From Nitrospiraceae bacterium (GTDB lineage Bacteria; Nitrospirota; Thermodesulfovibrionia; UBA6902), in NCBI GenBank assembly GCA_020356065.1, contig CP070632.1:964122-1026322 (forward strand): a stretch of 62,201 bases of DNA. Reading direction: 5' to 3'. The notes under the pieces are model-generated. The model was not told the origin of the DNA and did no database searches. It saw only the letters and a program-made list of their open reading frames with translations. Positions 22,753-50,596 of the stretch are shown here, piece by piece (position 1 is the stretch's first letter; each line of letters starts with the position of its first letter). Position numbers and translations under genes: made by a program.

Positions 22753-23508
22753 TTAAAGAAATCCGAACATCCTGAGTTTGTAAGGCAGGTCGATTATGGT
22801 CATGTCATTTATTTCTTTCTCTAACAGTTTAAATCCGGCCTCAATAATACCTCTCTGGGTTTCTTTATCACCGGGATTGCCGAGAGGTTTACCTGCGGAA
22901 GATTTCACGGACAGCACCCTTGGCGGTCTTGTGAGACCAGTGATGTCCTTACGAAACGTTGTGCATACGGTACTGACACCTGCTTTTTCAACCTGCCTTG
23001 CTATCAGTCCGACCGACTGGTTACAGATTACTCATGTAGGTGTCAGAAATGCAATGTCTACGCCACGTTCTTTAAGACATTCCCCTACTTTTGCTGAATT
23101 ATCCAGAAGAGGCCCGGTAACATAGATGTGGCCCATGAAACTGTAATGTTCTTCAGAGAGAGACTTGATCTTTCCTTCCTTTACATATTCCCTCATTCTG
23201 TCAACCGGGAATACACAGTTAATGTCCTCGTTAATGAACGTGTGGTCATATGAGTCGTGTGTTACCATTATATCGGTATGTTTCATGTTACCGGGAAGTA
23301 TTCTGTATGAACAGTCTCCCTCCTTATGTTTTGTATCAAAGGGGATGTCTGTTTTTAAATGAAGACCGCCTGTAGTGAGCAACGCAACTTTGCAATCATG
23401 CAACGGCTTTGATAACGGAGTGACAGGGGTATCATTGAAAACTGTATATGCAAACGAAGGATATTTTTTCTGTATAATTTTTTTTGTAACTAAAAGTGAT
23501 TTAAGCAT
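22753..23508 (-). CDS. GrdB-family selenoprotein, Sec at an in-frame TGA (251 aa)
   Basis: The frame reads through a TGA at 23034-23032 (residue 159) and ends at TAA 22755-22753. The residues before the TGA (DIAFLTPT) and after it (VICNQSVGLIARQVEKAG) are contiguous parts of the glycine/sarcosine/betaine reductase selenoprotein B family. The result is a redox-type motif Sec159-x-x-Cys162. The tail (RPPRVLSV, GKPLGNPGDK) also fits the family. A SECIS-like hairpin starts 12 nt after the TGA. AAGGA is placed well before the ATG. It is the last gene of a sulfur operon, so a reductase or sulfur-transfer role is possible; true glycine reductase activity is unlikely because grdA/C/D/E are absent. 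Standard annotation would stop at residue 158. Confidence 0.88.
23005..23034 (-). promoter_or_regulatory. Bacterial SECIS-like hairpin of the GrdB-family gene
   Basis: After the UGA (23034-23032), CAGUC (23019-23015) and GACUG (23009-23005) form a 5-bp stem with loop GGUCG. The apical loop begins 17 nt after the UGA and starts with G. This fits the bacterial SECIS rule of a small loop with G in its first two positions, 16-37 nt from the UGA. Confidence 0.7.
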
Positions 23509-27283: not shown

Positions 27284-27640
27284 TTACATTCCTAAATTAA
27301 TAAAAATATCTGACCGCTTCATAAGCGAAAAAAGACCCTTTAACGCACTTTTTTCAGTTCCCTCCATATAACTTTCTCCCGCGCTACAGCGGAAGTTCAC
27401 GCATCCTCCTCAGAGGTCTACTTTCAGGCCTTTATCCATCAGCTCTTTGAATCTGTCAGCAGCGTGAGGAAGTCCGCTGCCTTTCTGTCCTTTTAAGAAA
27501 TTATAGACTCCGTCAGCAGAAGCAACAAGGTGCGTTTCAATATCTCTGTCAAGTGCCGCTTCAGCGATCTTCATGGCTGTATAAGAGTTTTCATAGTTAT
27601 AGGGGGATGTGTTGAGAAAAAGAGTTAACGTTTTATTCAT
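27284..27640 (-). CDS. DsrE/TusD-family selenoprotein, Sec at the catalytic position (118 aa)
   Basis: The frame reads through TGA 27412-27410 to TAA 27286-27284. Without read-through the product would be 76 residues, too short for DsrE/TusD. With it, the length (118) and ending (KGLFSLMKRSDIFINLG) are normal. Sec77 falls in KVDL-Sec-GGC, giving Sec77-x-x-Cys80. It aligns with Cys78 of E. coli TusD, the sulfur-relay cysteine. The start ATG overlaps the arsR stop by one base and has GGAG upstream. A SECIS-like hairpin lies 12 nt after the TGA. The product probably carries sulfur or selenium as a persulfide or selenosulfide, using SQR-derived sulfane sulfur. The function is inference; the frame and motif are seen. 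Confidence 0.9.
27370..27412 (-). promoter_or_regulatory. Bacterial SECIS-like hairpin of the dsrE-like gene
   Basis: After the UGA (27412-27410), AACUU (27397-27393) pairs with AAGUU (27374-27370) and CCGC (27392-27389) with GCGG (27382-27379). A GAGA bulge lies on the 3' side and the apical loop is UGUAGC. The loop starts 21 nt after the UGA and has G at its second position, matching the bacterial SECIS geometry. Confidence 0.72.
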
Positions 27641-27981
27641 CAGTGTCTCCTGGACCCGGGGTAGGTACCTTTTTTCGTAACAGGGCAGCATTCCGGTCCA
27701 GGAAGGTCCCCCTTATACTCTTTTTGCAGGACTTCCAGCAGATCGGGTACGAACGGACTTTTCAGAAAATAACACCTCAGCCTTCCATCTACAAAGAAAT
27801 CGATAAGTCCTGCATGTCTCAGTGCAGAAAGATGCTGCGATATGTTTGGCTGGCTTATTTCAAGAAATTGCTGGAAATCACTGACACACTTTACCCCTTT
27901 CGTCAGTTCTTCAAGTATCGCTATTCTTGCGGGGTGAGCAATGGTTTTCATTGTTTCTACCTTTGATGAGAGATCATTCAT
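27640..27981 (-). CDS. ArsR-family transcriptional regulator of the sulfur operon
   Basis: This winged-helix repressor has the recognition helix SQPNISQHLSALRHAGLI. Cysteines are Cys32 (KGVKCVSDF, the position of the first ArsR-type thiol), Cys70, and a Cys98-Cys99 pair near the C-terminus. These could bind a metal(loid) or sense persulfide, as in SqrR/BigR-type members; the sequence does not decide. I chose ATG 27981 over the TTG at 27987. Its stop overlaps the dsrE-like start (TGATG), so it heads the operon dsrE-F-H-sqr-tauE-grdB-like. It probably controls that operon and itself. Confidence 0.88.
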   Translation of the reverse strand: MNDLSSKVETMKTIAHPARIAILEELTKGVKCVSDFQQFLEISQPNISQHLSALRHAGLIDFFVDGRLRCYFLKSPFVPDLLEVLQKEYKGDLPGPECCPVTKKGTYPGSRRH

Positions 27982-31910: not shown

Positions 31911-32873
31911 ATGAATTCGTTCCGATTGAACTCGCGGCGTGGAAAATCACGACAGCAGCAGCGTTCGCATGTGACAGCGCGCAGAGTTGTTTCATCTGAT
32001 GAGAAAAAGTTTCTTGCCGGTACTGCCGTAAATCCGCATCCGCGTATTATTCTTGAGAAGGGCAGTGATGATGTATCCGCCCGTGCGCTTGATCTTATTT
32101 GTCCGATAGGGATGGGGCAGCGTGCTCTTGTTGTATCATCGCCCGGGTCGGGTAAAACGACATTTTTAAAGAATATCTGCAACGCGGTAACGAACGGATA
32201 TCCCGACATGAGGGTATATTGCCTTCTTGTTGATGAACGACCCGAAGAGGTGACTGATTTTACGCGAAGTGTGAATGCAACGGTATATTCCTCGTCTATG
32301 GATCATGGTCATGAAAGTCATATCAGGATTGTCGATACGGTTGTCGCAGAGGCTTTTAAGGAAGCTGCAGCAGGGCATAATGTGATGATACTGCTTGATT
32401 CACTGACGCGTCTGGCACGGGTACATAACTCACAGCACCGGGGTCGAGGACGTACGATGTCCGGAGGAGTAGGTGCCGGTGCACTTGAAGTGCCACGCCG
32501 AATTTTTGGTACTGCCCGAAATGTAGAGGGTATGGGCTCCATAACTATCATTGCGACAATCCTGGTCGATACGGGCAGTGCCATGGATAATGTGATATTT
32601 GAGGAATTTAAGGGCACAGGCAATATGGAACTGGTGCTCTCAAAAAAACTGGCGGAGACCAGGGTGTTCCCGGCAATCGATGTGTTGAAGAGTGGTACAC
32701 GGCGTGCTGAGCTTTTGATTGAACCGGAAGAGTACAGACACCTTGAATTATTGTACCGTGGCCTGACAACAATGGATAATGTTACTGCTATGGAAAGGCT
32801 GATAGAGATGATTCAGAAATATCCCAGCAATAGCGATCTATTAGAATCATTTAAGGATGTTAAGGTTACTTAG
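31911..32873 (+). CDS. Rho-like ATPase lacking the N-terminal RNA-binding domain (320 aa)
   Basis: The core matches the ATPase/C-terminal domain of transcription terminator Rho: VDERPEEVTDF, MILLDSLTRLARVHN, SGGVGAGALEVPRRIFGTARN and NVIFEEFKGTGNMEL. The Walker A is SSPGSGKTTF rather than the usual APPKAGKT of Rho. The usual N-terminal helix bundle and cold-shock RNA-binding domain (about 130 residues) are missing; a short basic segment (RRGKSRQQQRSHVTARRV) stands in. The ATG has AAGGAG upstream and no frameshifted upstream part is visible, so the short form looks intended. It is probably a paralogue, not the housekeeping Rho. The first third looks more GC-rich than its surroundings. Confidence 0.85.
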   Translation: MNSFRLNSRRGKSRQQQRSHVTARRVVSSDEKKFLAGTAVNPHPRIILEKGSDDVSARALDLICPIGMGQRALVVSSPGSGKTTFLKNICNAVTNGYPDMRVYCLLVDERPEEVTDFTRSVNATVYSSSMDHGHESHIRIVDTVVAEAFKEAAAGHNVMILLDSLTRLARVHNSQHRGRGRTMSGGVGAGALEVPRRIFGTARNVEGMGSITIIATILVDTGSAMDNVIFEEFKGTGNMELVLSKKLAETRVFPAIDVLKSGTRRAELLIEPEEYRHLELLYRGLTTMDNVTAMERLIEMIQKYPSNSDLLESFKDVKVT

Positions 32874-33458: not shown

Positions 33459-35078
33459 ATGAAATCTCAAGACAACATAAATTTGGAGAATGCATTAAAT
33501 TTTGACAACAAATATACCCGGGAGCTTCCGGCAGACCCTGAAAGTACAAACGAAATACGTCAGGTAAGCAACGCATGTTATTCCAGAGTCCAGCCAGTAA
33601 GGGCGGGAGGACCTGAATTAGTAGCCTACTCCAGGGAGATGGCCGAAGAGGTCGGACTTTCCTCCGAGCTCTGTGAGTCTGAGGATTTTGTACAGGTTTT
33701 CTCAGGCAATAAGGTCTTATCCGGTATGGATACATATGCCACCTGCTATGGCGGGCACCAGTTTGGCAGCTGGGCCGGCCAGCTCGGAGATGGGCGTGTC
33801 ATTAACCTGGGAGAGATAGTAAATAAAGAGGGAAGAAGATGGGTGCTTCAGCTTAAGGGTGCCGGCCCGACTCCATACTCAAGAATGGGAGACGGTTTTG
33901 CGGTATTACGATCATCGATCCGTGAGTTTCTCTGCAGCGAGGCCATGTATCACCTCGGGATCCCTACTACGAGGGCATTAAGTCTTGTAACCACCGGAGA
34001 TCAAGTGATCAGGGATATGTTTTATGATGGGAACACTCAACCGGAGCCTGGAGCGATTGTCTGCCGGACAGCACCTTCATTCACACGATTCGGTAATTTC
34101 GAGATTCTTACCTGGAGAGGAGAGCTGGATCTCCTGCGCCGCTTCGCAGATTACACGATACGTACCGACTTTCCTCATCTGGGTGAGCCGTCAAAAGAAG
34201 TATACTGTGCATGGTTTGATGAAATCTGTAAATCAACAGCAGAGATGATCGTGCACTGGCAGCGTACAGGTTTTGTTCATGGAGTCATGAATACTGATAA
34301 TATGTCTATTCTGGGGCTCACAATCGATTACGGTCCCTATGGATGGCTCGATGATTATGATCCGGACTGGACTCCCAACATTACGGATGCACAGGGACGG
34401 AGATACCGGTTTGGCAATCAGGCAGAGATTGCGAGGTGGAATCTCATCCAGCTCGCAAACGCAATTCATCCCTTAATCGAGGAAGTTAAGCTTCTGGAGG
34501 ATGCAATCCATACCTATTCAAATCATCTGCGCGATACATGGCAAACAATGATGGCAGACAAATTAGGCCTTTCCGGTTTCATTAACGATAGTGACAATGA
34601 ACTTATCGGTGACATACTCGGTCTGCTGCAGCATGTCGAAACAGACATGACTATATTTTTTCGCAGACTGGCAGCATTTGATATACAGAGCCATGCTGCG
34701 TACGGATCATCGGTTCATGATCTTATAAAGCATTTCTCTGATGCATATTATGTATCAGATCAGATAGACGATGCATATAAGGTCAGGCTTGATAAATGGA
34801 TAGATCAATATAGAGTGCGTCTGAATCAGGACAAGATTCCCGATCATATGCGCAGGGAAAAAATGAATAGAGTTAACCCGAAATATATACTGAGAAACTA
34901 TATTGCGCAGCTTGCTATTGAAAAAGCAGAACATGGAGACAGCTCTATGATCAATGAACTGCTAGAGGTACTGAGGAAACCCTACGATGAACAGCCTTCC
35001 AATGATGAGCTTTCACAAAAACGTCCTGAATGGGCACGACATCTGGCAGGAAGTGCGATGCTGTCCTGAAGCTCATAA
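33459..35078 (+). CDS. selO: SelO/YdiU protein AMPylase, selenoprotein ending Ser-Sec-Ser-Ser (539 aa)
   Basis: SelO is a pseudokinase-fold enzyme that transfers AMP to proteins in redox stress. The fold signatures are clear: FGSWAGQLGDGR, LQLKGAGPTPYSR, RSSIREFL and HGVMNTDNMSILG with Asp280/Asn281, and Asp290 in IDYGPYGW. These correspond to E. coli Asp246, Asn247 and Asp256. The frame meets TGA at 35067-35069, followed by AGC TCA TAA. Reading TGA as Sec537 gives the C-terminus AMLS-Sec-SS, matching VSCSS in E. coli and the antepenultimate Sec of animal SelO. A perfect 9-bp SECIS-like hairpin follows. The activation-loop cysteine that pairs with this residue in E. coli is absent (DPDWTPNITD). 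Confidence 0.93.
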
Positions 35079-35099
35079 TTCTCTTATGGAATAAGAGAA
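35067..35099 (+). promoter_or_regulatory. Bacterial SECIS-like hairpin of selO, in the 3' UTR
   Basis: After the UGA (35067-35069), UUCUCUUAU (35079-35087) pairs perfectly with AUAAGAGAA (35091-35099) around loop GGA. The loop starts 18 nt after the UGA and begins with G, as in bacterial SECIS elements. It lies outside the coding part because only two codons follow the Sec. There is no T tract, so a terminator is less likely. Confidence 0.78.
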
Positions 35100-35100
35100 A

Positions 35101-35718
35101 ATGGGAAATGGGGACGTTGTTACCTGCTTTCGGGTGGATATCAGATCATCATATGTTATATGTTGTGATAATAGAGGCCTTATCCCCGAGATTAATATTA
35201 TGGAACTGATGCTTCTTACTGATGTAAGTGTGAATACTAAATCGAAAGTTGGATACGGGGCTTACCTTTCTGTGTCTGAGTCCGGACTATCTTTGGAAAT
35301 TTTAAAGGAGTGCGTGAAGGTGAAACGCTTTGAGCATACGTCTTCAACTAAACTGGAATTGCAGACGTTATTATGGGCGCTCAGGGACATACAGACGGTA
35401 AGGTGTAGGGTGACTGTATATACAGACTCTCAAAACATCATGGGCTTACAGGCAAGACATGATCGGTTTGAGCAGAATGAATATCAATCAAGGAAGATCA
35501 GACACCTTAACAATTACAAACTGTATCAGGAATTTTACAACATGACTGATCAAATGAATTTACAATTCATTAAAGTGCGTGGACATAAGATATCGAATCA
35601 GAAAGATTACATAGACATGCTTTTTACACTTGTGGACAGAGCGTCAAGGAATGCATTGAGAAGAGATTCAAATGACCAGCCTGCCGCGGGGAGATTATTC
35701 AGCAGACATATATCATAA
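35101..35718 (+). CDS. RNase H-like fold protein
   Basis: The domain shows an RNase H-type acidic set: Asp41 (LLTDVSVN), Glu86 (TKLELQTLLWAL), Asp109 (VYTDSQNI) and Asp179 (LVDRASR). The spacing fits RNase HI, and a basic HLNNYKLY handle-like region lies near 135-142. The first 33 residues are extra. An internal ATG at 35200 (MELMLLTD) would give the core fold only, and neither start has a strong ribosome site. RNA-DNA hybrid cleavage is inferred from the residues. It begins right after the selO SECIS-like hairpin. Confidence 0.75.
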   Translation: MGNGDVVTCFRVDIRSSYVICCDNRGLIPEINIMELMLLTDVSVNTKSKVGYGAYLSVSESGLSLEILKECVKVKRFEHTSSTKLELQTLLWALRDIQTVRCRVTVYTDSQNIMGLQARHDRFEQNEYQSRKIRHLNNYKLYQEFYNMTDQMNLQFIKVRGHKISNQKDYIDMLFTLVDRASRNALRRDSNDQPAAGRLFSRHIS

Positions 35719-38024: not shown

Positions 38025-40034
38025 TTATGCAGGCTGTGCTTCTTTTAACCACAGAAGTCTTGAGTGGTTGATCACAGATGCATTTAACGTGTCCACAAGC
38101 TCTGCCGCGTTTGCATCAAGACCCTGTTTTTTCTCAAAGGCCGTAAACTTTGCCTTCTGGCTTACCTGAAATGCCTTTTTCATCTCAGCAGCCGACTCCT
38201 TGACAGGTTTGTTCATGGCTTTCGAAAGCTCCATGAAGATCGTCTTGTGCTGTTTTGAATCACCGGCAGGTGCCATGGCGCTTTTTAGGTCTTTTGCTTT
38301 GCCCAGATAGCTGATTATTGAGCCTGCTGATTCAACCGGAGCAGCTGCAGGAAGAATAACATCAGCCACTTTTGCAAGATCAGTCATGTATGAAGTCTGG
38401 GCAATGATAAAACCTGACTTAGGCTTTTTGCTGATGGGAAGTTCTCCGATTGCATAAAGAACATCAACACCACCTGAAGCCATTTCACTGAACGTCTTGC
38501 CCTTTGCAGTCAGACCCAGGGACATGACACCTTTTGCATTAGCCTCCAGGGGTACTGCGGTAACCTTGATGTCAGCGGCAAGAGAAAGGTTTCTCGCGGC
38601 GCTGAAAAGGGAAGGGGAACACAGTATTGCTGTGTTTTCCGCTTTTATTATCAACTCAGCAGCCTTTGCCATATCTTCAGACACTGTCTCCCCTGATACG
38701 GCATCAATAAGTTTTTTATCAGCTTTAGCACCAGCGTCTATGAGGGCTTTTGCGAGCTGGGAAAGAGATGTTGCCTCATTACCCTTTATATTAACTGTTG
38801 CTGCTGAACCTAACCTGGTGTCATCAGCATTAATGGTAATCAGCTTTGCCCCTCTAGCAACACTCTTTCTAACGCCTGCGTCAAGGGCCGGAAGTACTCT
38901 GTCCCACTGCGAGGGGTTGAGTCCCGCAACAACTATTGTATTAAGGGCATCGAGATGTATTTGGTCAGAGAGCTTCATGGAATCAACATCTGCGTAAAGA
39001 CTTGCTGTTGTATCTATATTTTTGGTCTTGATTACATCAGAGGCCAGCTTTGCAAGTACAAACGCGTCCTGGTTAAGGATTCCAGCGGTGCTGATGATGC
39101 CTGAATTTTTTGAATCTTTTAACTTTGCTGCTGCAAGAGAAAGCGCATCATCCCATGAAGCTTCCTCGAGTTTTCCATTTTTCCTGATCAAAGGGCTCGT
39201 GACCCGAGCATCTGAACCGACCGCATCAAATCCAAAACGTCCGATGGCACAGATATAATTCTCTACAGAACCATCTTCACCGCCAGCTTTGACCTTGACA
39301 ACAGCGCCTTCACTTGTGCTAACCGATATGTCACATCCGTTTCCGCAGGAAAGACATACAGATTTTGAAGTTTCATATTCCCACTCCCTGCCTTTTCTCC
39401 ACCTGTCTGCCTCCAGCAGGGCATTTACCGGGCAGGCATCTACACAGCTTCCGCAGAAGGTACATTCGGATTCCTGAAGAGGTTTGTCCATGGCAGTGGC
39501 CACTTTTGCACCAACGCCCCTACCCATGAAATCAAGTACGTTCGTTCCCTGCTCTTTGCAGACCCTTACGCATCTTGCACAGAGAACGCAGTAATCAGGA
39601 TCTCTTTTGATGAAAGGATTGGCTTCATCAACGGGGTATCCGAATTTCTTTCTCGTCAGGCTTGATTCCTTTACCTCAAAATCATATGCATACTGCTGAA
39701 GATTACATACTCCTGCCTTTGTGCATGTCATGCAGTCAAGGGGATGCATCGAGAGAATAAGATCAATAATGAATTTTCTCATCTCCTGGATTTCTTCCGT
39801 GGATGTGTTCACAACCATGCCTTCTTTGGCTTTCGTAATACACCCTACTACCGGACCTTTACCTCCTTCAACATCTATGAGGCAGAGTCTGCAGGCGCCT
39901 ATACCCCTCATACCCTTAAGGTAACAGAGATTCGGGATATGAATTCCAACGGAAGCTGCTGCTTCGATGAGGTTTGTCCCCTCCGGGACTTTGGCCTCTT
40001 TTCCGTCTATTGACAGAGTTATGTTTTTGGACAT
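38025..40034 (-). CDS. NuoG/formate-dehydrogenase-like iron-sulfur and molybdopterin-fold subunit
   Basis: The N-terminus is a [2Fe-2S] ferredoxin domain (GACRLCLIDVEG and later VVGC). A His-Cys [4Fe-4S] region follows (HPLDCMTCTKAGVC), then two more [4Fe-4S] motifs (CVLCARCVRVC, CTFCGSCVDAC). A CLSCGNGC cluster precedes a shortened molybdopterin-oxidoreductase fold. No Cys/Sec ligand for molybdenum is evident, so the last part is probably structural, as in NuoG. I chose ATG 40034 (GGAGGGGG upstream). It is the last gene of the operon and likely links the NuoF-type diaphorase to CODH/ACS or a ferredoxin. Confidence 0.85.
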   Translation of the reverse strand: MSKNITLSIDGKEAKVPEGTNLIEAAASVGIHIPNLCYLKGMRGIGACRLCLIDVEGGKGPVVGCITKAKEGMVVNTSTEEIQEMRKFIIDLILSMHPLDCMTCTKAGVCNLQQYAYDFEVKESSLTRKKFGYPVDEANPFIKRDPDYCVLCARCVRVCKEQGTNVLDFMGRGVGAKVATAMDKPLQESECTFCGSCVDACPVNALLEADRWRKGREWEYETSKSVCLSCGNGCDISVSTSEGAVVKVKAGGEDGSVENYICAIGRFGFDAVGSDARVTSPLIRKNGKLEEASWDDALSLAAAKLKDSKNSGIISTAGILNQDAFVLAKLASDVIKTKNIDTTASLYADVDSMKLSDQIHLDALNTIVVAGLNPSQWDRVLPALDAGVRKSVARGAKLITINADDTRLGSAATVNIKGNEATSLSQLAKALIDAGAKADKKLIDAVSGETVSEDMAKAAELIIKAENTAILCSPSLFSAARNLSLAADIKVTAVPLEANAKGVMSLGLTAKGKTFSEMASGGVDVLYAIGELPISKKPKSGFIIAQTSYMTDLAKVADVILPAAAPVESAGSIISYLGKAKDLKSAMAPAGDSKQHKTIFMELSKAMNKPVKESAAEMKKAFQVSQKAKFTAFEKKQGLDANAAELVDTLNASVINHSRLLWLKEAQPA

Positions 40035-40101
40035 GTAAACCCCCTCCATAATAATTTCAAATTATAAATTACAAAAACGTAATGCTTAACACGTCACGAA
40101 A

Positions 40102-40707
40102 TTATGCTTCTACTTTTTCAGATTCTGCCATTTCTTTTGCAGTAACAGTTTTGACCGCGTCAAACCGGCATACTTTCAAGCATTCACCGCACTTTGTGCA
40201 TCTCTTCTGGACTATTTCATAAGGAAGGTAGCCGGAATAATAGGGTTTTTTCTTTTCGCCAAGAATTGCATTGTCCTTACATGCTTCAAGACAATCCCCA
40301 CACATGGTGCAGTTTTCGGGAATGATCATATATCTGGTGAATTCCATACATTCATTTTTCTGACAGACACCGGTCACATGGTTAGCAAGATCATTGAGAT
40401 CAACGTCCTCCTGCAAATATTTCGCTGTGTCTTTGCCCTTTTTGCACATGGAAGCTTCACTCATAACATCTGCGATCTTTCTGACAGCAGCTATGTCCTC
40501 TTCAGTTGCGGAGCCATCAGTGAGTCTCTTAAGTCTGATCTGTGCTTCATACGACCCCATGGAACAGGGGAAGCATCTCCCGCACATGGGTTCAGCAAGG
40601 AATTCCTCAACAAATGTGAGCGCTTTCTGCACCGCACACTGTTTCTCATCGGCCTTTGCCTTGACATCTTCCATTTTAACTGCTTTCTTTTTGTTTTCTT
40701 CGCTCAT
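40102..40707 (-). CDS. Iron-sulfur protein with NuoF-type [4Fe-4S] region and two ferredoxin clusters
   Basis: Residues about 38-85 resemble the C-terminal iron-sulfur region of NuoF (EPMCGRCFPCSMGSYEAQIRL). The second half has two [4Fe-4S] motifs (CTMCGDCLEACKD, CTKCGECLKVCRFDA). It has no flavin domain. It may be an electron-wire subunit between the NuoF-like and NuoG-like proteins encoded on either side. The gene lies between them in the operon; a repeat hairpin fills the spacer upstream. Confidence 0.82.
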   Translation of the reverse strand: MSEENKKKAVKMEDVKAKADEKQCAVQKALTFVEEFLAEPMCGRCFPCSMGSYEAQIRLKRLTDGSATEEDIAAVRKIADVMSEASMCKKGKDTAKYLQEDVDLNDLANHVTGVCQKNECMEFTRYMIIPENCTMCGDCLEACKDNAILGEKKKPYYSGYLPYEIVQKRCTKCGECLKVCRFDAVKTVTAKEMAESEKVEA

Positions 40708-40740
40708 TGCCTTTTCCCTTATAGCTTATAAATTACTGCA

Positions 40741-40816
40741 TAATTAGTAGTTGGTAGCTAGTAGTTCGTAGTCATGTAAAAAAAGACTATGTCTTTGCCT
40801 CCTAACTTCTAACTCC
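40741..40816. repeat. Intergenic word-repeat hairpin (TAGTAGTT/AACTTCTA)
   Basis: The left side repeats TAGTAGTTGG, TAGCTAGTAGTTCG and TAG. The right side has CCTAACTTCTAACTCC, the approximate reverse complement, and runs into the end of the nuoF-like gene, overlapping its stop codon. It belongs to the same style of elements as at 6511 and 50511. Confidence 0.5.
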
Positions 40817-42688
40817 TTTCTTTTGTCTTCTGTGTTTTTCCACTTTCACCGCTTCAGTAGGACATACAGAATAGCAGGCTTTGCATTTTGTACAGTAGTC
40901 CTGATCAATAAAGAATCTATTCCTTGTTTCTCTGACTGCTCCAAAGGCACATGCCTGCTTGCAGAGTCCGCAGAGAATGCAGTTTTCACTGTCTATTCTG
41001 AATAATCCGAGACCGCTGCATGCCTTTGCGCGGCAATACTTATCATAAATATGCTCTTCATACTCTTCCCTGAAATACTTGATAGTGGTAAGTACAGGAT
41101 TAGGTGCACTGTTTCCAAGACCGCACAGAGAACCCTTGACGATTTTCTTTCCAAGTTCTTCGAGGCTTTCAAGATCACCATGTTCTCCATTGCCTGAAGT
41201 AATCTTCTCCAGTATCTGCAGCATCTGGTATGTACCTATCCTGCAGGGAGGGCATTTTCCGCAGGACTCGGACTGCGTAAAGGAAAGAAAGAATTTTGCA
41301 ACATCTACCATGCAGGTATCCTCATCCATCACAACCATACCGCCTGATCCCATCATTGATCCTACTTTCCAGAGAGAGTCAAAATCAACAGGAAGGTCAA
41401 GATGTTCAGCAGGGATACAGCCTCCTGATGGACCTCCTGTCTGTACCGCCTTGAATTCTTTGTCATTGAGAATACCACCGCCTATTTCATAGATGATTTC
41501 TCTTAATGTAATACCCATCGGTACCTCAACAAGTCCGGTGTTCTTGACTTTACCGGTCAGTGCAAACACCTTTGTCCCCGGGGAATTCTTTGTGCCGATC
41601 GAGAGGAAGTGATCGGATCCTTTATCAATAATAACAGGCACACAGGCGTATGTTTCAATATTATTAAGATTGCTCGGATACCCCCATGGTCCACCGCCGG
41701 GTTCAGAAAGTCTTGGAGGCCTTGGTCTCGGGAATCCCCGTTCACCCTCAATGGATGCTACAAGTGCTGTTGACTCACCGCAGACAAATGCCCCTGCACC
41801 TTCCCTGATATTCATGGTGAAACTGAAATCAGTACCAAGGATATTCTTGCCGAGAAGCCCTTTCTCCACTGCCTGGTCTATAGCTATCTGCAGGTTTTTG
41901 ACCGCAAGAGGGTACTCATGTCTGACATAAATGATTCCGTACTGACCGCCCATTGCGTAAGCACAGAGCGCCATTCCCTCGAGAAGAGAATGGGGATCAC
42001 CCTCCATGATAGACCTGTCCATAAATGCTCCGGGGTCACCTTCATCACCGTTTGCCACGACAAATTTTATATCTCCGGGAGCGCCTTTGACATGTTTCCA
42101 TTTTCTGCCAGCCGGAAATCCTGCACCACCCCTGCCTCTGAGGTTGGCTTTATCAACTTCTTCCATAACGTCATCAGGGGTCATGGACGAAAGTGCTTTT
42201 TCAAGACCTGCATATCCTCCCACAGCAATAAAATGATCGATATTATTTGGATCAACAACACCGTTATTTCTTAAAGCTATCCTGACCTGCTTTTTGTAAA
42301 ACGGTATATCAACCATCTCAGGAATGGGTTCAGTAAGAATATTGTCCCTGTACAGTCCCTGCCTGAATGGCATATTGCCCAGCATGGAATAACTCATGAT
42401 GGAAGAAACATTCTCGGGTTTTGTTCTCTGGTAAAAGATATTTATGGGTTCGACTTTTAGTACAGGACCTTTCTGACAGATACCCTGACAACCTGTTTTC
42501 ACTATCTCAACCTCAACGCCTGAGTTTGCTGCTTCTTTTTCAAATGAGTCAATGACTTTATATGCCCCTGTTGCCGTACATGCGGTGCCACAACAGACCC
42601 TTGCCCTTAAGGCATCAGGTTGAAACGTCTCCTTTTTGAGTTTTTCCCTTAACTCTTTAAGCTCATTAACACTGTTTAGTTTTGCCAT
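40802..42688 (-). CDS. NuoF/HndC-like NAD(P)H-binding flavin and iron-sulfur subunit
   Basis: A thioredoxin-like [2Fe-2S] domain opens the protein (CCGTACTATGAY and later TGCQGICQKGP). The NuoF FMN/NADH domain follows (LRGRGGAGFPAGRKW, GDEGDPGAFMDR). Then come the [4Fe-4S] SESCGKCPPCRIG site and two C-terminal ferredoxin clusters (CILCGLCKQAC, CTKCKACYSVC). This is the layout of HndC/HydB-type diaphorases in bifurcating hydrogenases and formate dehydrogenases. At 628 residues it is full length. It should exchange electrons between NAD(P)H and Fe-S partners. Encoded between the NuoE-like gene and the ferredoxin-like gene. Confidence 0.92.
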   Translation of the reverse strand: MAKLNSVNELKELREKLKKETFQPDALRARVCCGTACTATGAYKVIDSFEKEAANSGVEVEIVKTGCQGICQKGPVLKVEPINIFYQRTKPENVSSIMSYSMLGNMPFRQGLYRDNILTEPIPEMVDIPFYKKQVRIALRNNGVVDPNNIDHFIAVGGYAGLEKALSSMTPDDVMEEVDKANLRGRGGAGFPAGRKWKHVKGAPGDIKFVVANGDEGDPGAFMDRSIMEGDPHSLLEGMALCAYAMGGQYGIIYVRHEYPLAVKNLQIAIDQAVEKGLLGKNILGTDFSFTMNIREGAGAFVCGESTALVASIEGERGFPRPRPPRLSEPGGGPWGYPSNLNNIETYACVPVIIDKGSDHFLSIGTKNSPGTKVFALTGKVKNTGLVEVPMGITLREIIYEIGGGILNDKEFKAVQTGGPSGGCIPAEHLDLPVDFDSLWKVGSMMGSGGMVVMDEDTCMVDVAKFFLSFTQSESCGKCPPCRIGTYQMLQILEKITSGNGEHGDLESLEELGKKIVKGSLCGLGNSAPNPVLTTIKYFREEYEEHIYDKYCRAKACSGLGLFRIDSENCILCGLCKQACAFGAVRETRNRFFIDQDYCTKCKACYSVCPTEAVKVEKHRRQKKGVRS

Positions 42689-42707
42689 ATCTCCACCTTG
42701 TTAAATA

Positions 42708-42801
42708 TTGTTCAAAGTTGTTTAAGATTGTTTAACATTGTTCAAAATTGTTTTTCTAAAACGTATAACTATTTTGAACTCTATTGAACAATGTTTAACT
42801 T
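42708..42801. repeat. Tandem decamer GTTYAANATT followed by its reverse complement
   Basis: Four to five adjoining decamers (GTTCAAAGTT, GTTTAAGATT, GTTTAACATT, GTTCAAAATT) are followed by three in the opposite sense (ATTTTGAAC, CTATTGAAC, AATGTTTAAC). RNA across the nuoE-nuoF spacer would form one long AT-rich hairpin. Confidence 0.8.
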
Positions 42802-42815
42802 ACTTATAAATTAAA

Positions 42816-43322
42816 CTATTCATCATCCGCTGCCGTTTTAACTGTATCGTCTTCCCTGATATTCTCGATCATAACAGACAGGGATGTATCGTCGATTTCG
42901 CCTACAATATTTTCATTAACAGTAGCAACAGGTGCCAGACCGCAGCATCCGATACAGCCGACTGTCTCGAGCGTCATGGCAAGATCTTCTGTTGTTTCAC
43001 CCTCTTTAATTTTAAATTCGTCTTTCAACCTGCTCATCACCTCACCTGCGCCACGAACATGACATGCTGTTCCGGTGCAGACCCTGACGATTTTTCTGCC
43101 GCGGGGTGTAAAGTAAAACTGTTTGTAAAATGTTGCGGTACTGTAAACATCAGACATGGCGATGCCGAGGTTTTTTGAGAGCTTCATCAGTTCTTCTTGT
43201 GGAAGATAGTTATGCTCTTCCTGAATCTGCTGGAAGGCATGAATCAGGATACCTCTCTTCTTCTCTGTCTCCGTTAAAACCTCAGCTACGTGGCCAAGTA
43301 CTTCATTAGCGTTCAGCGTCAT
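42816..43322 (-). CDS. NuoE/HndA-like thioredoxin-fold [2Fe-2S] subunit
   Basis: The 168-residue protein has the NuoE pattern: an N-terminal helical part (GILIHAFQQIQEEHNYLPQ) and a [2Fe-2S] thioredoxin fold with CTGTACHVRG and later CIGCCGLAP ligands. It is the small partner of the NuoF-like protein. The start has GGAGG upstream and overlaps the cooS end by 17 bp, which ties the diaphorase module to CO dehydrogenase in one transcript. Confidence 0.92.
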   Translation of the reverse strand: MTLNANEVLGHVAEVLTETEKKRGILIHAFQQIQEEHNYLPQEELMKLSKNLGIAMSDVYSTATFYKQFYFTPRGRKIVRVCTGTACHVRGAGEVMSRLKDEFKIKEGETTEDLAMTLETVGCIGCCGLAPVATVNENIVGEIDDTSLSVMIENIREDDTVKTAADDE

Positions 43323-45309
43323 TTATACCTCCTACACCTGCATGCGGTGTAATTACTCTTCTGGCAGCCATATCCATGAGCACCCTCTCTGCACCGAATT
43401 TTCCGGGTTCGTATTTCCTGAGCTTGAGAGCTTCTCTTGCCTTGTCTATATAGTCGAGCGCCATGGCAAGCATTTTCTCCGGATCAGGCTCAAAATGCAT
43501 GGCTCCCATGTATCTTTCCATCCAGACCTCGGTCATGATTCTTGTAACTTCTTTACTGGCGCCCACCGGGGATTCTCCGCCGAAGATGACCGGAACTCCG
43601 GAAGCCGCGAAATAGACTCCAATTGCTATTGCCTTTTCAGACATCCATTCAGGAGCAATACCTACCGCAGGCATACCGCCGATCTCATCGGAGAGTCCGC
43701 CTTCCTTGGCCATATTAGTTGCAATGGTAAGAATTCTTGAATTATCAACACATGCTCCAAGGTGAAGAATAGGCGGAATTCCTATAGCTTCACAGACCTC
43801 TCTGAGACCGGGACCGGCATTCTCCAATGCCATTTCCGGAGTGAGATATCCGGCGGATCCGCAGGCAGCTGACCCGCAGCCTGTTGAAACAATAAGCACG
43901 TCGTTTTTGATTAACTCTCTTGCGATGTATTTATGAATACCTGTTGACGCAACCCGCGGATTGTCACAACCGGCCAGTCCAACGACTCCGCGCACTCTGC
44001 CGGCTGCAATTGCATCATTTAACGGTCTGTAGGATCCACGCCATTTTCCGCCCTGCATATACTCGATATATTCGTCTGAGAAGCCGCCGATAAGAGGAAA
44101 CTTTTCAGATATATGACTTCCCTCTTTTGTCCTGTTTGGAAAATTGTCACAGGCGAGCTTTAAGATCTCCCTTGCTGTCTTGTTAGGATGATGTTCGTCA
44201 TGCTCTATGTGGATGGCGTCCTGGATCATTGCCTTCGGACTCGTCGTGATGATCTTCGTATGAAACTTTTTGGACAGCTGAGTAATCGCCGGCATAATGC
44301 ACTGTACATCTACTGAAAGAGCATCAATCAGACCGGTCATGATGCCAAGTTCCTGGTTTGTGAATCCACCGGCAGTGGGGATCCCGTGTCTCATCAGCAC
44401 CTCATTTGCAGTACAGCACATTCCGCCGATATTAATTCCTTTCGCCCCTTTCGATTTTGCGTAATCGATCATTTCCTGTGATGAGCCGACCTCAACTATG
44501 GCTTCTGCAAGGGTAGGTTCATGGCCATGGACCACCATGTTGACTTCATCTTCCTTGAATATGCCGAAACTTGCTTCAGCCTTAATAGGCATGGGTGTTC
44601 CAAAGAGTATGTCTGTTATGTCAGTGGAGATCATGCATCCGCCCCACCCATCGGCAAGAGCTGTTCTCAAGCCCTGTGTCAGAAGGTGGTCAGGATCATG
44701 GTCAACACCGACAGCGGTACGGTGCATTGTTTCTACAACCTCTCTGTCTATACCGCGGGGGGTTATGCCGTATTTCTTCCATCTCTCCTGTGTTTTTTCC
44801 GGAGCCCTCTTGCAATAGTTGAGCTCACCATTCTGACGGCCGAAGTCCTGGAGAAATGTTTCCGCTACATCTTTTGCAACCTCGTTGACTTCCCTTCCTT
44901 CAAATTCAATATCGAGGATGCCTGCAACCTTATAGAGCTTTCTTACATCCTTGATTTTGAAGTCAGTTGTTTCACCGGTTGCAACTGCCAGGAGCGTATT
45001 GGCCATGTCCCGGGAATGGTCTGAATGGGCGGAGGTGCCGGCAGCGATCATACGCAAAAAATTTCTGGCTGCAACGGTTGCAAGTGTAGCTCCGCACACG
45101 CCCCTTGCTTCTTCTTCTGCGTTCTTACCAACGAGTCTGCATGGTCCCATGTGACATACCCTGCAGCAGGCGCCTGTCTCACCGATAGGGCAGGGCTTGA
45201 GCCTGTCTGCACGGTCAAAGCATGTTTCCATTTCATGGGACTCACCCCATTCAATTATTTCTTCAGCTGAAGATCCTGCACTCTTAACTGGTTTGTTATG
45301 GTTGCTCAT
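43306..45309 (-). CDS. cooS: Anaerobic carbon monoxide dehydrogenase catalytic subunit (CooS/AcsA)
   Basis: This Ni-Fe enzyme interconverts CO and CO2. The N-terminal Cys set for the B and D clusters is visible (CPIGETGACCRVCHMGPCRLVG). C-cluster ligands lie in the later segments GGMCCTANE, GLAGCDNPR, STGCGSAACG and HLGACVDNSR. Length 667 is typical. GGAGGTAAT precedes the ATG. It sits directly after acsB and should form the bifunctional CODH/ACS complex, reducing CO2 to CO for acetyl-CoA synthesis, or the reverse. Nickel loading is likely helped by CooC encoded at the head of the operon. Confidence 0.96.
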   Translation of the reverse strand: MSNHNKPVKSAGSSAEEIIEWGESHEMETCFDRADRLKPCPIGETGACCRVCHMGPCRLVGKNAEEEARGVCGATLATVAARNFLRMIAAGTSAHSDHSRDMANTLLAVATGETTDFKIKDVRKLYKVAGILDIEFEGREVNEVAKDVAETFLQDFGRQNGELNYCKRAPEKTQERWKKYGITPRGIDREVVETMHRTAVGVDHDPDHLLTQGLRTALADGWGGCMISTDITDILFGTPMPIKAEASFGIFKEDEVNMVVHGHEPTLAEAIVEVGSSQEMIDYAKSKGAKGINIGGMCCTANEVLMRHGIPTAGGFTNQELGIMTGLIDALSVDVQCIMPAITQLSKKFHTKIITTSPKAMIQDAIHIEHDEHHPNKTAREILKLACDNFPNRTKEGSHISEKFPLIGGFSDEYIEYMQGGKWRGSYRPLNDAIAAGRVRGVVGLAGCDNPRVASTGIHKYIARELIKNDVLIVSTGCGSAACGSAGYLTPEMALENAGPGLREVCEAIGIPPILHLGACVDNSRILTIATNMAKEGGLSDEIGGMPAVGIAPEWMSEKAIAIGVYFAASGVPVIFGGESPVGASKEVTRIMTEVWMERYMGAMHFEPDPEKMLAMALDYIDKAREALKLRKYEPGKFGAERVLMDMAARRVITPHAGVGGINDAER

Positions 45310-45325
45310 ATTACCTCCATAATAT

Positions 45326-45384
45326 CATGATGAGTAATGTGTGATGAGTAACGGGAATATTTTTTTCTCTACTCGTTACTATCT
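45326..45384. repeat. Intergenic word-repeat hairpin (GATGAGTAA)
   Basis: TGATGAGTAATG and GTGATGAGTAACG are tandem words. CTACTCGTTACTATC on the other side is the approximate reverse complement, around a T-rich centre. It occupies the acsB-cooS spacer. Confidence 0.5.
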
Positions 45385-47598
45385 TTAGAACATCGGATCC
45401 ATTTCAAGGGCCGGATGTCCGACATTCGCCAAATGTTCCATTAATTTTTCCGAGTCTTCAGCAATGGTTTCATCTGCTATCTTGTCCATCAGATCAGGTA
45501 CGCCTTCCTCTTCACATCTCTGTTTGAAGTCCTCGGCAATTCTCTCTTTAAGATTCTTTGTCATCCAGACGATTCTCTTGATGCCCCCATCGGCATAGAG
45601 AAATTTCCTGCTCGTTATAAAGTTCACCCCAATTCCCATAAATCCGGGATTCTGCGTTCCTCCGCCAACCGTACCGGCAAGGGTAGAGAACTTCATGCCG
45701 ACAGGTGTCTCACCGGTATGACCTCTCTGTACGAGCATGATACCGTTGGCCTCCGGGATAATGGCGACAATGCACTCAAAGCAGCCGCATGATGTCATGG
45801 GATTGTCCATGATTGTGTATAGGTTGAGAGACTCAACTGCGCCTGCTGAATTGCTCTGGAGATATTTGTCTACCCCTTCCCAACGGCCCTGTTTTTCATC
45901 CAGCACCGTGCTCTTTTCTATCGGCTGGTTACCACCGGTAGGATCAATTTCATATGCAGCCTTGCAGTCAAGCCAGTTATAAGCGCCGCAAAGACCAAGA
46001 CGCTCCGGACTGATGACGCAGACATGTGAAGGGGCAAAAGACTGACAGAGAAGACATGAATAGTACGTTTCAACTGACTCATCTGTAAGACCTGCAAGCC
46101 TGTGGTCTCTCTCCTTGTAATTTGCCCGCGCCTGCTCCTGAAGTTCGAGCACGTCTTTCTCATCGAAATAAAGTGTGACTTGTACTTTATCAACAATAGA
46201 CTTGAACCTGTTATGCGTCATCGTATTATGGATAGTGCCGATATGCTCCAGTGTGATCCCATCCTTGTATGCCTGATTGCTGATTCTCATCCAGACGATG
46301 TCACGCTGTCCCATGTGCCACAGACCCTGTGCTTCATTAATATTATGGTGGAGCTTCCTTTCTATGATCGCTTCAAAGTCACTCTGCATTTTTCTGCCGG
46401 CAACGTCAATTACAATGCCCAGAGGCATTCTGCCGCCAGCTTTATATCTCTCTTCTATATCAGTGCCTACCAGGACGACTTTTCCATCTTCAATTTCTTC
46501 AAGCTCTTTTGTTCTTACCCATTCAAATGCCGGAGTACGCTGACCGCCGAACTCAATAAACATGTCCTCTTTCCTGATCCGCTCACCTTCGAAAGCAGGA
46601 CCGTAAGAAACAGGAATCGGTGGCTTCTCAACCGTAACTTTAAGACCTCTGACTTCAAATGCACGTTGAACAATTTTGTCATGGTCAAGTTCAACTTCAA
46701 CATGCTCGTATGTACATACACCCGTAGGATGGATAACAGGCACCTCGGTATCACATATTGCAGGATATCCAAAATTGATCGCACCTGCTCCCGTCGACCA
46801 TTTAACATCATCAAGCTCGCCGAGTACGAGGGCGAACGCAAACACCCTGTCCTTTGTGTATTTGAGGTTTGCCTTATAATCACCCGGCTTGTTGCCGCCG
46901 AATATCATGGAGGCCCGTATGGACCAGTCAAGGGCATAAAGCGTATGCTCAGTATCAGGACCAAGAGGGACGATATATGTGTCCCACCCGAGTTCAACTC
47001 CCTTTCTCAAAAGCTGCTGGGTCACGTTTGTAACATTCCCGTTTTTGTCTTTAGCCGTACCAGACAAAAAGGTAAGAATGTTCTTTTCCTGAAGCTCTCT
47101 CACTATTTTTGCCGCCGTATCATCATCAGGAGCAGCACCGATTATCGCGGCAAATCCCGGCATTCTGCCGTCAACAAGCTGTATGCCGAGATTTCTCTGG
47201 ATCGTGTCTGTAATGAACCCGTTATATACGTAGCCTGTTTCAGGATCAGTGGCCGGTTCCTGGCCGTTAAGATATCTCATTGCAAGGATGATTTCCTCAC
47301 AGAAGAGGGTGGCCATTCCTGAGTCAAGGGCTTCGCCAAGGTAAGGTTTCCATAGGGTATCTTCAGGTGCGTCGTGAAGCATCTCCCTGGCCATTTCAAG
47401 GGCAACTTTCATATCAGCAAGGGTCTTGACAGGAAATGCGGTCATCGCATATATCTGCGGAAGATAAAATGCGGTATCAGGAAATTCAAAAACAAAGTCC
47501 TTGCCTTTTTCAGCGATCGCCTTATCAAGCATCTCCTCTGCTGTTTTAAAAAGACCGTGTGCAGCGTTAATAGCAGCAGTGGCTATCAGTTTTGACAT
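45385..47598 (-). CDS. acsB: CO-methylating acetyl-CoA synthase (AcsB)
   Basis: This is the A-cluster subunit that joins CO, a methyl group and CoA. The A-cluster cysteines are in CLLCQSFAPSHVC, GLCGAYNWLDC and SCGCFECI. The N-terminal domains that dock to CODH are present, so it is the full bacterial form (737 residues). AGGAGGTAACG is an excellent ribosome site. It lies between the fur-like gene and cooS in the operon. With AcsC/AcsD/AcsE it completes the carbonyl branch of the Wood-Ljungdahl pathway. Confidence 0.97.
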   Translation of the reverse strand: MSKLIATAAINAAHGLFKTAEEMLDKAIAEKGKDFVFEFPDTAFYLPQIYAMTAFPVKTLADMKVALEMAREMLHDAPEDTLWKPYLGEALDSGMATLFCEEIILAMRYLNGQEPATDPETGYVYNGFITDTIQRNLGIQLVDGRMPGFAAIIGAAPDDDTAAKIVRELQEKNILTFLSGTAKDKNGNVTNVTQQLLRKGVELGWDTYIVPLGPDTEHTLYALDWSIRASMIFGGNKPGDYKANLKYTKDRVFAFALVLGELDDVKWSTGAGAINFGYPAICDTEVPVIHPTGVCTYEHVEVELDHDKIVQRAFEVRGLKVTVEKPPIPVSYGPAFEGERIRKEDMFIEFGGQRTPAFEWVRTKELEEIEDGKVVLVGTDIEERYKAGGRMPLGIVIDVAGRKMQSDFEAIIERKLHHNINEAQGLWHMGQRDIVWMRISNQAYKDGITLEHIGTIHNTMTHNRFKSIVDKVQVTLYFDEKDVLELQEQARANYKERDHRLAGLTDESVETYYSCLLCQSFAPSHVCVISPERLGLCGAYNWLDCKAAYEIDPTGGNQPIEKSTVLDEKQGRWEGVDKYLQSNSAGAVESLNLYTIMDNPMTSCGCFECIVAIIPEANGIMLVQRGHTGETPVGMKFSTLAGTVGGGTQNPGFMGIGVNFITSRKFLYADGGIKRIVWMTKNLKERIAEDFKQRCEEEGVPDLMDKIADETIAEDSEKLMEHLANVGHPALEMDPMF

Positions 47599-47680
47599 CG
47601 TTACCTCCTGGTGAATGTTAAGTTCGGTTTACTGAGTACAAGCGTTATGAAAATTGAGGATTACAGGTAATTAATTGCAG

Positions 47681-48079
47681 TTATCTGCATGTGCTGCATT
47701 TACCGAAAAACTCAATATGACTGCCCGTTACATCAAATCCATCCGTCAGATCCTCTGAAAGATCAAGATTAAAGTTTTTGTATATGTCAACAATACTTCT
47801 GCAGCCTGTGCATATTAAATGATGATGAGGTGTTGTGTCCGGATCATATCTTTTCTTGGATGGATCTATTTTCAGCTCAAGAATCTGTTCCTTGTTTTTT
47901 AGTGCTTCGAGGGTGTTATAGACGGTGGCAAAAGACATAGTCGGAAATTCCCTGGATACTGATTTATAGATATCCTCTGCTGATGGATGGCTCTTATTAC
48001 CATCAAGATAACCCAGTATTGCAATGCGTTGCGGTGTTAACTTAATGTTTAGATGCCTGTATCTTTCCATTGTTGTCAT
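47681..48079 (-). CDS. Fur/PerR-family metalloregulator inside the CODH/ACS operon
   Basis: The winged helix (LTPQRIAILGYLDG; SAEDIYKSV; SFATVYNTLEALKNK) is followed by the metal-binding dimer domain. It has a CTGC and CSTC pair for structural zinc and the HHHLIC segment typical of Fur/PerR. I chose ATG 48079, with GGAGGGGTGATT upstream. The HHH-rich sensing site suits PerR-like oxidant or metal sensing. Its place between acsC and acsB suggests that it tunes this oxygen-sensitive, iron- and nickel-rich operon. Confidence 0.9.
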   Translation of the reverse strand: MTTMERYRHLNIKLTPQRIAILGYLDGNKSHPSAEDIYKSVSREFPTMSFATVYNTLEALKNKEQILELKIDPSKKRYDPDTTPHHHLICTGCRSIVDIYKNFNLDLSEDLTDGFDVTGSHIEFFGKCSTCR

Positions 48080-48111
48080 AATCACCCCTCCCAATTATAA
48101 AAATTATCACA

Positions 48112-48126
48112 TTAGAATAATTCTTG
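48112..48126. promoter_or_regulatory. Candidate PerR/Fur box upstream of the fur-like gene
   Basis: TTAGAATAATTCTTG contains the palindrome AGAATAATTCT and matches the PerR consensus TTATAATNATTATAA at 11 of 14 defined positions. It lies about 35 bp before the fur-like start and after acsC, where an internal autoregulated promoter could sit. Confidence 0.5.
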
Positions 48127-48161
48127 TCAAATCCTACGCTACACCTCTTAAATATAAAAAA

Positions 48162-49505
48162 TCAAGCTTCCCTGCTCTTAAGATAAGTCGGGAGTGCATT
48201 AGCTTCCCTGGGACCTACAGTGATTTTCCATCCTTCAAGCTTGTCCTCCAGTGCACCGCTGAGAATTGCCACCTGACCCGGAAGAATAAGCTCTTTGTTG
48301 CTCACCTGATCACCTACACCGCTTTCAATAATAAACTGCGCTATCTTAGCTGCTGTAAACTTACCGGCCGCCCACGCAGTCAGAACGGACAGACCCTCAC
48401 AATCCATAACCGCAAGTCTGCTTGGCACCTTACTGTTTTCAACTTCACCCGACACGATAAAGTACGTAAGGGAGAAATTGGTGGTGATCATCAGCGGTGA
48501 ATCAGCAGTCGGCTCACTGATCTCATATATTTTCTGCTCAACCTGCATCGGTACCTGCGGGTCAGTGTAAATGTTCTGTCTGACGGTGAACAGTGCAAGG
48601 TTTTTCCACTTTTCAACACTGCTGAGAACAACGATGGAAGCATACTTTGCTATCGCAACAGATGCAATTGCTGTTTCAAGGGTGGAATCGTCTCTGATTA
48701 CATAATTAATAATCGGGTAGCCCAGAGGTTTGAAGTTCTTCTTCAGCGCAGACCTTCTGATCTGTGTATTATGTTCGATTATTTCCTTCGCCGTTTTTGC
48801 ACCTGAATCGAGGACCATGTCCTCGACACCAAGTCCCTTGATCTTTTCAGTGAGAAGACTCAGTGCTTCAGGGCCTTCTGCGCAGGCGGCTAGGGGGACA
48901 CTGTTCGTCTTTGCAATATTTGCCATTGCCTCGGCGGTTTCATCAGTCGCACAGTATAAAAGCGGTTTTCTGTTGGCAACAGCCTTGACAGCAGCCTCTG
49001 CGGCTCCCGCATCTTTACAGTTTAGGATAAGTGCGACATCTGGAGCCTTGTCAGCAACAAGCTTGACAGCTGCCTCATATTTTGCGGCATCACCGGAAGC
49101 GTATTCAATGGAAATAGCATCGATCCTGAGTTTCTGACCTACACGTTCAAGTTCTGATGCGGCAACTTCTTCAGCTTTTCCAGCCAGTTCATCATCACTC
49201 AGCGTATCAGCTATATTAACTGCCAGAACACAGGGGTTTATAAATTTCTTGTCATGTCTGAACAGGACGTTCTCACCGCCCATCTTGACTGACTTTTCTC
49301 CGCTTCCCAGGCTGAACGATCTGATGGGTGGCGCTGAAGCCTCTCCCAGTGTTTTTTTAGCTTCTTCAGAGACATCCGGACATGCTGAAAGATCTACGCC
49401 TCCCTGTGCAAGCTTCATAGCAAAGGCAAGGCATGTGGGAAAACCGCACTTCTTGCAGTTGGTCTTTGGAAGAAGTTTAAATATCTGGACTCCGGTTAAT
49501 GCCAT
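48162..49505 (-). CDS. acsC: Corrinoid iron-sulfur protein large subunit (AcsC)
   Basis: The N-terminal [4Fe-4S] domain has the conserved cysteines in NCKKCGFPTCLAFAMKL and later Cys in LSACPDVS. A TIM-barrel middle and a C-terminal B12-binding domain follow. The protein carries the methyl-cobamide that donates the methyl group to acetyl-CoA synthase. Length 447 is normal. GGAGGATACAC precedes the ATG. It lies between acsD and the fur-like gene. Confidence 0.95.
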   Translation of the reverse strand: MALTGVQIFKLLPKTNCKKCGFPTCLAFAMKLAQGGVDLSACPDVSEEAKKTLGEASAPPIRSFSLGSGEKSVKMGGENVLFRHDKKFINPCVLAVNIADTLSDDELAGKAEEVAASELERVGQKLRIDAISIEYASGDAAKYEAAVKLVADKAPDVALILNCKDAGAAEAAVKAVANRKPLLYCATDETAEAMANIAKTNSVPLAACAEGPEALSLLTEKIKGLGVEDMVLDSGAKTAKEIIEHNTQIRRSALKKNFKPLGYPIINYVIRDDSTLETAIASVAIAKYASIVVLSSVEKWKNLALFTVRQNIYTDPQVPMQVEQKIYEISEPTADSPLMITTNFSLTYFIVSGEVENSKVPSRLAVMDCEGLSVLTAWAAGKFTAAKIAQFIIESGVGDQVSNKELILPGQVAILSGALEDKLEGWKITVGPREANALPTYLKSREA

Positions 49506-49552
49506 GTGTATCCTCCGTTATATGTCAAAATGTATACAGTAATTATCAATAA

Positions 49553-50494: not shown

Positions 50495-50510
50495 TTTATT
50501 CCTCCTTAAA

Positions 50511-50592
50511 TAAGGTAGATGGTAGATAGTAGGTAAGGGAAAAATATTTAGGTTTAATCCTGACGGCTAACTCCCTGCTACTAACTACTATT
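50511..50592. repeat. Intergenic word-repeat hairpin (GTAGATAGTAGG)
   Basis: GGTAGATGGTAGATAGTAGG and GTAAGGGA on one side face TCCCTGCTACTAACTACTA on the other. The halves are approximate reverse complements and fill the acsE-acsD spacer. Confidence 0.55.
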
Positions 50593-50596
50593 TTAT

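Follow-up and report, generated by a model that had tools for sequence, protein, structure and literature searches.

The selO locus and its product

The window, the whole 62,201-nt stretch of DNA analysed here, carries a selO gene on the forward strand whose frame ends ...MLS-TGA-Ser-Ser-TAA. Read through the TGA, the coding sequence occupies 33459-35078 (+) and comprises 536 residues, a selenocysteine (Sec) at position 537, two serines (AGC TCA), and TAA. The original prediction had given this Ser-TGA-Ser-Ser-TAA ending exactly, but its end coordinate of 35099 holds for the downstream hairpin and not for the frame, which closes at 35078. The features of the locus are as follows.

33459, plus strand: start ATG
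35067-35069, plus strand: TGA, predicted Sec codon, aligned with TGC/TGT (Cys) of 174 other SelO tails
35072-35105, plus strand: bacterial SECIS with a 9-bp upper stem, a GGA loop, and a 5-bp lower stem
35076-35078, plus strand: true stop TAA, overlapping the SECIS lower stem

The protein matched Pfam family PF02696 with an E value of 1.3e-127 (426.9 bits versus a cut-off of 22.8) and also scored above the cut-off of the NCBIfam YdiU family. Its predicted fold (model pLDDT of 91, with low values of about 61-68 in the tail and activation loop) resembled those of Escherichia coli YdiU and Pseudomonas syringae SelO (Foldseek E value of about 1e-42). All of the top nine PDB matches were SelO/YdiU proteins; the best was YdiU with NAD, and YdiU-NAD complexes were among the best structural matches. 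As read from its sequence, the gene product is a SelO-family nucleotidyl transferase with a pseudokinase fold and a predicted selenocysteine third from last.

Conservation at and beyond the TGA

In total, 184 SelO C termini were read, drawn from 80 loci of a genome-contig search, from relatives in the same family and phylum, and from the order around a Desulfocapsa genome. The tail search pattern accepted Ser, Ala, and Gly as well at the Sec/Cys column. The column was Cys in 174 tails and TGA in 10, with no third residue in any of the 184, and C-S-S was invariant in the 174 Cys tails. The alignment of homologous C termini proposed in the original prediction thus returned only Cys (TGC/TGT) or TGA, with the Ser-Ser tail kept. 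Every full SelO gene recovered from the window's family, six in all, has the TGA, which is therefore not a mutated stop; the genomes are G000 (the window's own), G001, G002, G005, G011, and G014 and span four genera, three of them belonging to one genus and three to other genera. A second TGA set came from four large genomes of another order (G545-G548). The TGA lies one base away from the Cys codons and might be taken for a sequencing or assembly error for TGC or TGT, but six genomes that were assembled separately share it, which refutes this reading and leaves it a negligible probability.

SelO proteins within the window's family are 78-87% identical. Across family pairs, identity is 73-100% over the 30 nt past the TGA and 11-63% over the 54 nt that follow, where most pairs are below 30%, compared with 48-72% at fourfold-degenerate sites. 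If the TGA were an ordinary stop, the protein would end at Ser536, the C-S-S tail would be lost, and Ser-Ser-TAA would be a relic. However, an ordinary stop followed by free sequence would not yield such conservation. The invariance of C-S-S in the other 174 tails and the retention of TGA-Ser-Ser-stop together with the hairpin in six genomes, at a level above that of synonymous sites, also argue against an ordinary stop. The gene shows both marks of a bacterial selenoprotein, an in-frame TGA aligned with the Cys of homologues and conservation beyond it.

The SECIS element

The upper stem is formed by TTCTCTTAT (35079-35087) pairing with ATAAGAGAA (35091-35099) in nine perfect pairs around a GGA loop (35088-35090). 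The hairpin begins 9 nt past the TGA and its loop lies 18 nt from it, exactly as had been predicted (9 bp, 3-nt GGA loop). A 5-bp lower stem pairs 35072-35076 with 35101-35105. The minimum free energy (MFE) of the RNA at 35067-35110 is -11.7 kcal/mol (z = -4.2), and 1 of 200 shuffles was as low. Published criteria for a bacterial SECIS (PMC13188914) call for a 3- to 9-nt loop that has a G in its first two positions and lies 16-37 nt from the UGA, together with an MFE no higher than -7.5. Checked against these criteria, the whole element lies within all of them (GGA, 18 nt, -11.7 kcal/mol), whereas the A/U-rich upper stem alone reaches only -6.8 kcal/mol.

The stem is kept across the window's family, with one compensatory change from U-A to C-G in G005. 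Covariation is weak, being limited to this one pair, and 96 of 500 shuffles were as good for these six sequences, which are too similar to each other. The four TGA genes of the second order have hairpins of unrelated sequence, which are placed at 18-22 nt. Among the 174 Cys genes, a comparable hairpin at -7.5 or better was found in 7%, the median being none.

The location of the hairpin just past the end of the gene would also suit a transcription terminator, in which case the TGA would be a stop. However, the sequence after its 3' arm is AAATGGG and not a run of T, its stem is A/U-rich, and its position 9 nt from the TGA is kept across the family, so that a terminator is extremely unlikely. 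In the SECIS reading, SelB together with Sec-tRNA would bind the hairpin and the ribosome would place Sec at the UGA, then add two serines and terminate at the TAA. An RNase H-like gene lies at 35101-35718 (+) of the window (Pfam RNase_H, E value of 7.5e-13), and its ATG falls on the 3' arm of the lower stem of the SECIS.

Selenocysteine machinery and other TGA genes

A genome with a selenoprotein is expected to contain selA, selB, and selD, and all three were found (539 bits, 353 bits and over the cut-off, and 329 bits, respectively). The selD gene has its own active site read through an in-frame TGA (GG-U-AAKLGP). An IS4-type transposase-like gene, recognized by eye, lies between selA and selB (G000:C1:3057474-3058691).

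The remaining gene named in the original prediction, selC, was recovered in part. A BLAST search with the tRNA-Sec of a relative located the first 52-53 positions, including the UCA anticodon, at G000:C1:2032116, and this 5' fragment ends at an assembly gap of exactly 100 N (fragment and gap together, G000:C1:2032116-2032268). No complete tRNA-Sec turned up in the window's genome: an Rfam search gave only other tRNAs, below the cut-off, the single match to the pattern CTTCAR..GGTTCRA was spurious, and the surroundings of selA/selB and of selD yielded no tRNA. A divergent or intron-split tRNA-Sec was considered and dropped once the 100-N gap was seen. Compared with the intact tRNA-Sec of relatives, the fragment has changes in the D-stem with pairing still possible (G-C replaced by U-G, by eye). 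An intact tRNA-Sec is present in G011, itself a genome with the TGA form of SelO. In addition, truncated tRNA-Sec pieces occur in G002, G004, G009, G011, and G021 (5' pieces of 27-51 nt and 3' pieces of 24-27 nt), and in G009 and G011 they accompany a full or nearly full tRNA-Sec gene. The copy in the window's genome could therefore be a pseudogene, given that truncated and intact copies occur together in relatives. In this family, tRNA-Sec looks like a site of repeated integration or recombination, which may explain its absence from assemblies. The genome G005, the assembly of which is 91% complete, has the TGA form of SelO and gave no SelA match.

Two further genes in the window have an in-frame TGA.

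22753-23508, minus strand: PrdB/GrdB-like reductase, likely selenoprotein, with TGA at 23034-23032 (TPT-U-VICNQSVG)
27284-27691, minus strand: DsrE-like protein, likely selenoprotein, with TGA at 27412-27410 (VDL-U-GGCVNFRC)

The PrdB/GrdB-like gene matched NCBIfam PrdB (TIGR04483) with an E value of 6e-49 and 166 bits, which is below the curated cut-off of 300, and Pfam GRDB with an E value of 4.5e-15. Its ordinary frame would be truncated at 158 amino acids, and a hairpin with the loop GGTCG is found at 17 nt. The DsrE-like gene (Pfam DsrE, E value of 1.9e-16) also has a hairpin downstream of its TGA. A hairpin thus follows the TGA in selD, the PrdB/GrdB-like gene, and the DsrE-like gene, with loops 17-21 nt downstream. 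Elsewhere in the window, a short Rho-like factor (31911-32873, +; 320 amino acids) matches only positions 128-412 of Rho, and either its N-terminal domain is missing or its start is misplaced. Translations read by eye at 38025-51385 (-) form a run resembling CO dehydrogenase/acetyl-CoA synthase and NADH-dehydrogenase-like subunits.

An ordinary stop would agree with the failure to find a complete tRNA-Sec, but the presence of the Sec machinery and of other TGA genes in the genome speaks against it, and we regard it as very unlikely. The alignment of the TGA with Cys, the conservation past it, the SECIS, the selA, selB, and selD genes, and the further TGA genes indicate that the window SelO is almost certainly a genuine selenoprotein with Sec inserted at the TGA, and the original proposal of a true selenoprotein is strongly supported. 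Ordinary annotation would lose the last three residues of such genes, including one that is likely catalytic.

Origins of bacterial Sec-SelO

The evolution of the Sec forms was analysed with trees of 122 and 41 rows, both confined to bacterial SelO. The 122-row tree grouped the six Sec genes from the window's family in one clade (support of 100), adjacent to Cys genes from within its own phylum, and placed the other four Sec genes in a separate clade (support of 100), an arrangement that needs two changes, on the branches starred in the tree. The more careful 41-row tree agreed; constraining the Sec genes to one clade cost 13.4 log-likelihood units, with an approximately unbiased (AU) test P value of 0.185. 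Two origins of Sec are therefore favoured but not proven, since the trees separate the clades, yet the AU test does not reject a single one. Going by these sequences, Sec-SelO in the window's lineage probably arose by its own Cys-to-Sec change. We incline to the view that bacteria gained Sec-SelO on at least two independent occasions, in addition to its gain in eukaryotes, with Sec in the same place in the tail each time and in selenium users with relatives that keep Cys. If so, the recurrent change from Cys to Sec would suggest that the tail acts in catalysis and benefits from a selenolate, which would be ionised at a lower pH than the thiol, and paired Sec and Cys enzymes would allow a test of this role. 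The earlier idea that a bacterial Sec form would link the bacterial and animal proteins is not supported by these trees, in which the two Sec clades are nested among Cys forms. A direct link to animals is disfavoured because the closest relatives are Cys forms and the local motif is different (CxxU versus [C/S]-x4-U).

Function of the tail and the activation loop

The activation loop, DPDWTPNITD, spans residues 301-310, with Pro306 in the column where E. coli YdiU (GFICNHSD) has the Cys that we take to be the partner of the tail Cys in the E. coli redox switch. The window SelO lacks this Cys, as originally noted, and with it the activation-loop partner of an E. coli-type switch. However, the absence is not tied to Sec: the position is Pro in the whole subfamily (153 of 153 aligned long-class SelO proteins, of which 143 are Cys forms) and is therefore no mark of the Sec form.

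According to a commentary of 2026 (PMC13391479) on the work of Jia et al., human SelO requires its Sec-Ser-Ser tail for NAD+ hydrolysis, and residue 667, which adjoins the scissile bond, is dispensable for AMPylation. By analogy, the U-S-S tail of the window SelO would reach the active site and help to cleave NAD+ as in human SelO. A catalytic role of the tail in NAD+ cleavage, extrapolated from the human and E. coli proteins, is the reading we consider the more likely; it fits the strict C/U-S-S conservation and the lack of any fixed partner Cys. Alternatively, and as regards function only, Sec may serve as a redox switch that forms a selenenylsulfide with another Cys and not as the NAD+-cleaving residue. 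Such a switch would suit the reversible oxidation of human SelO, which engages in a mixed complex via its CxxU motif (PMC3994087), and the near invariance of Cys159 (99%) and Cys202 (96%) in the long-class subfamily. However, the nearest Cys, at position -5, is present in 97% of the Cys forms and is Ser in three of the six family Sec forms, the window SelO among them, which weakens this role, and the E. coli activation-loop position is Pro in all 153 proteins. The redox switch is hence possible but somewhat doubtful.

Comparison with known SelO proteins

A 2012 survey of the SelO family named Sec in eukaryotes only (PMC3281104). The statement in the original prediction that SelO proteins of bacteria carry Cys has been overtaken, since the 2025 deep-Sep report describes Sec-SelO in bacteria such as Desulfosediminicola ganghwensis IMCC35004 and TGA homologues in other Sec-using bacteria (PMC12013277). 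The D. ganghwensis protein (WP_136798779.1) is also listed in a 2026 review (PMC13188914). In view of the deep-Sep report, the window gene adds to the known bacterial Sec-SelO proteins and is not the first; it is probably an additional one, of a separate lineage, and this lineage may already be among the supplementary cases of that report. The recently reported class of predicted bacterial Sec-SelO proteins thereby gains a second lineage, for which six genomes, a conserved SECIS, and closely related Cys enzymes are available for comparison. Such natural Sec/Cys pairs offer a direct way to ask whether the U/C-S-S tail serves NAD+ cleavage, redox sensing, or both.

Like the window SelO, the D. 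ganghwensis SelO has Cys homologues, a predicted Sec, and a hairpin resembling a bacterial SECIS. The Sec genes of G545-G548 are taken to be of the Desulfosediminicola lineage, and if this holds, the two differ in order, in their Sec clades in the trees, and in hairpin sequence. The Methylobacter SelO, a long-class protein with the tail GCSMLSCSS, belongs to the same subfamily and is 64% identical, with Cys at the Sec position and Cys at -5, where the window SelO has Ser. E. coli YdiU and P. syringae SelO (PDB 6k20, 9l29, and 6eac) share the fold (TM scores of 0.81-0.84 by query and 0.94-0.95 by target) at about 39-40% identity but have Cys and not Sec, and E. coli YdiU, with its V-S-C-S-S tail (as given in the original prediction), has an activation-loop Cys where the window SelO has Pro. 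Animal SELENOO shares with the window SelO a Sec third from the C terminus, the U-S-S tail, and the SelO pseudokinase domain, whereas the CxxU motif (PMC3994087), a eukaryotic SECIS in the 3'-UTR, and mitochondrial targeting are found in the animal protein only, the motif here being [C/S]-x4-U.
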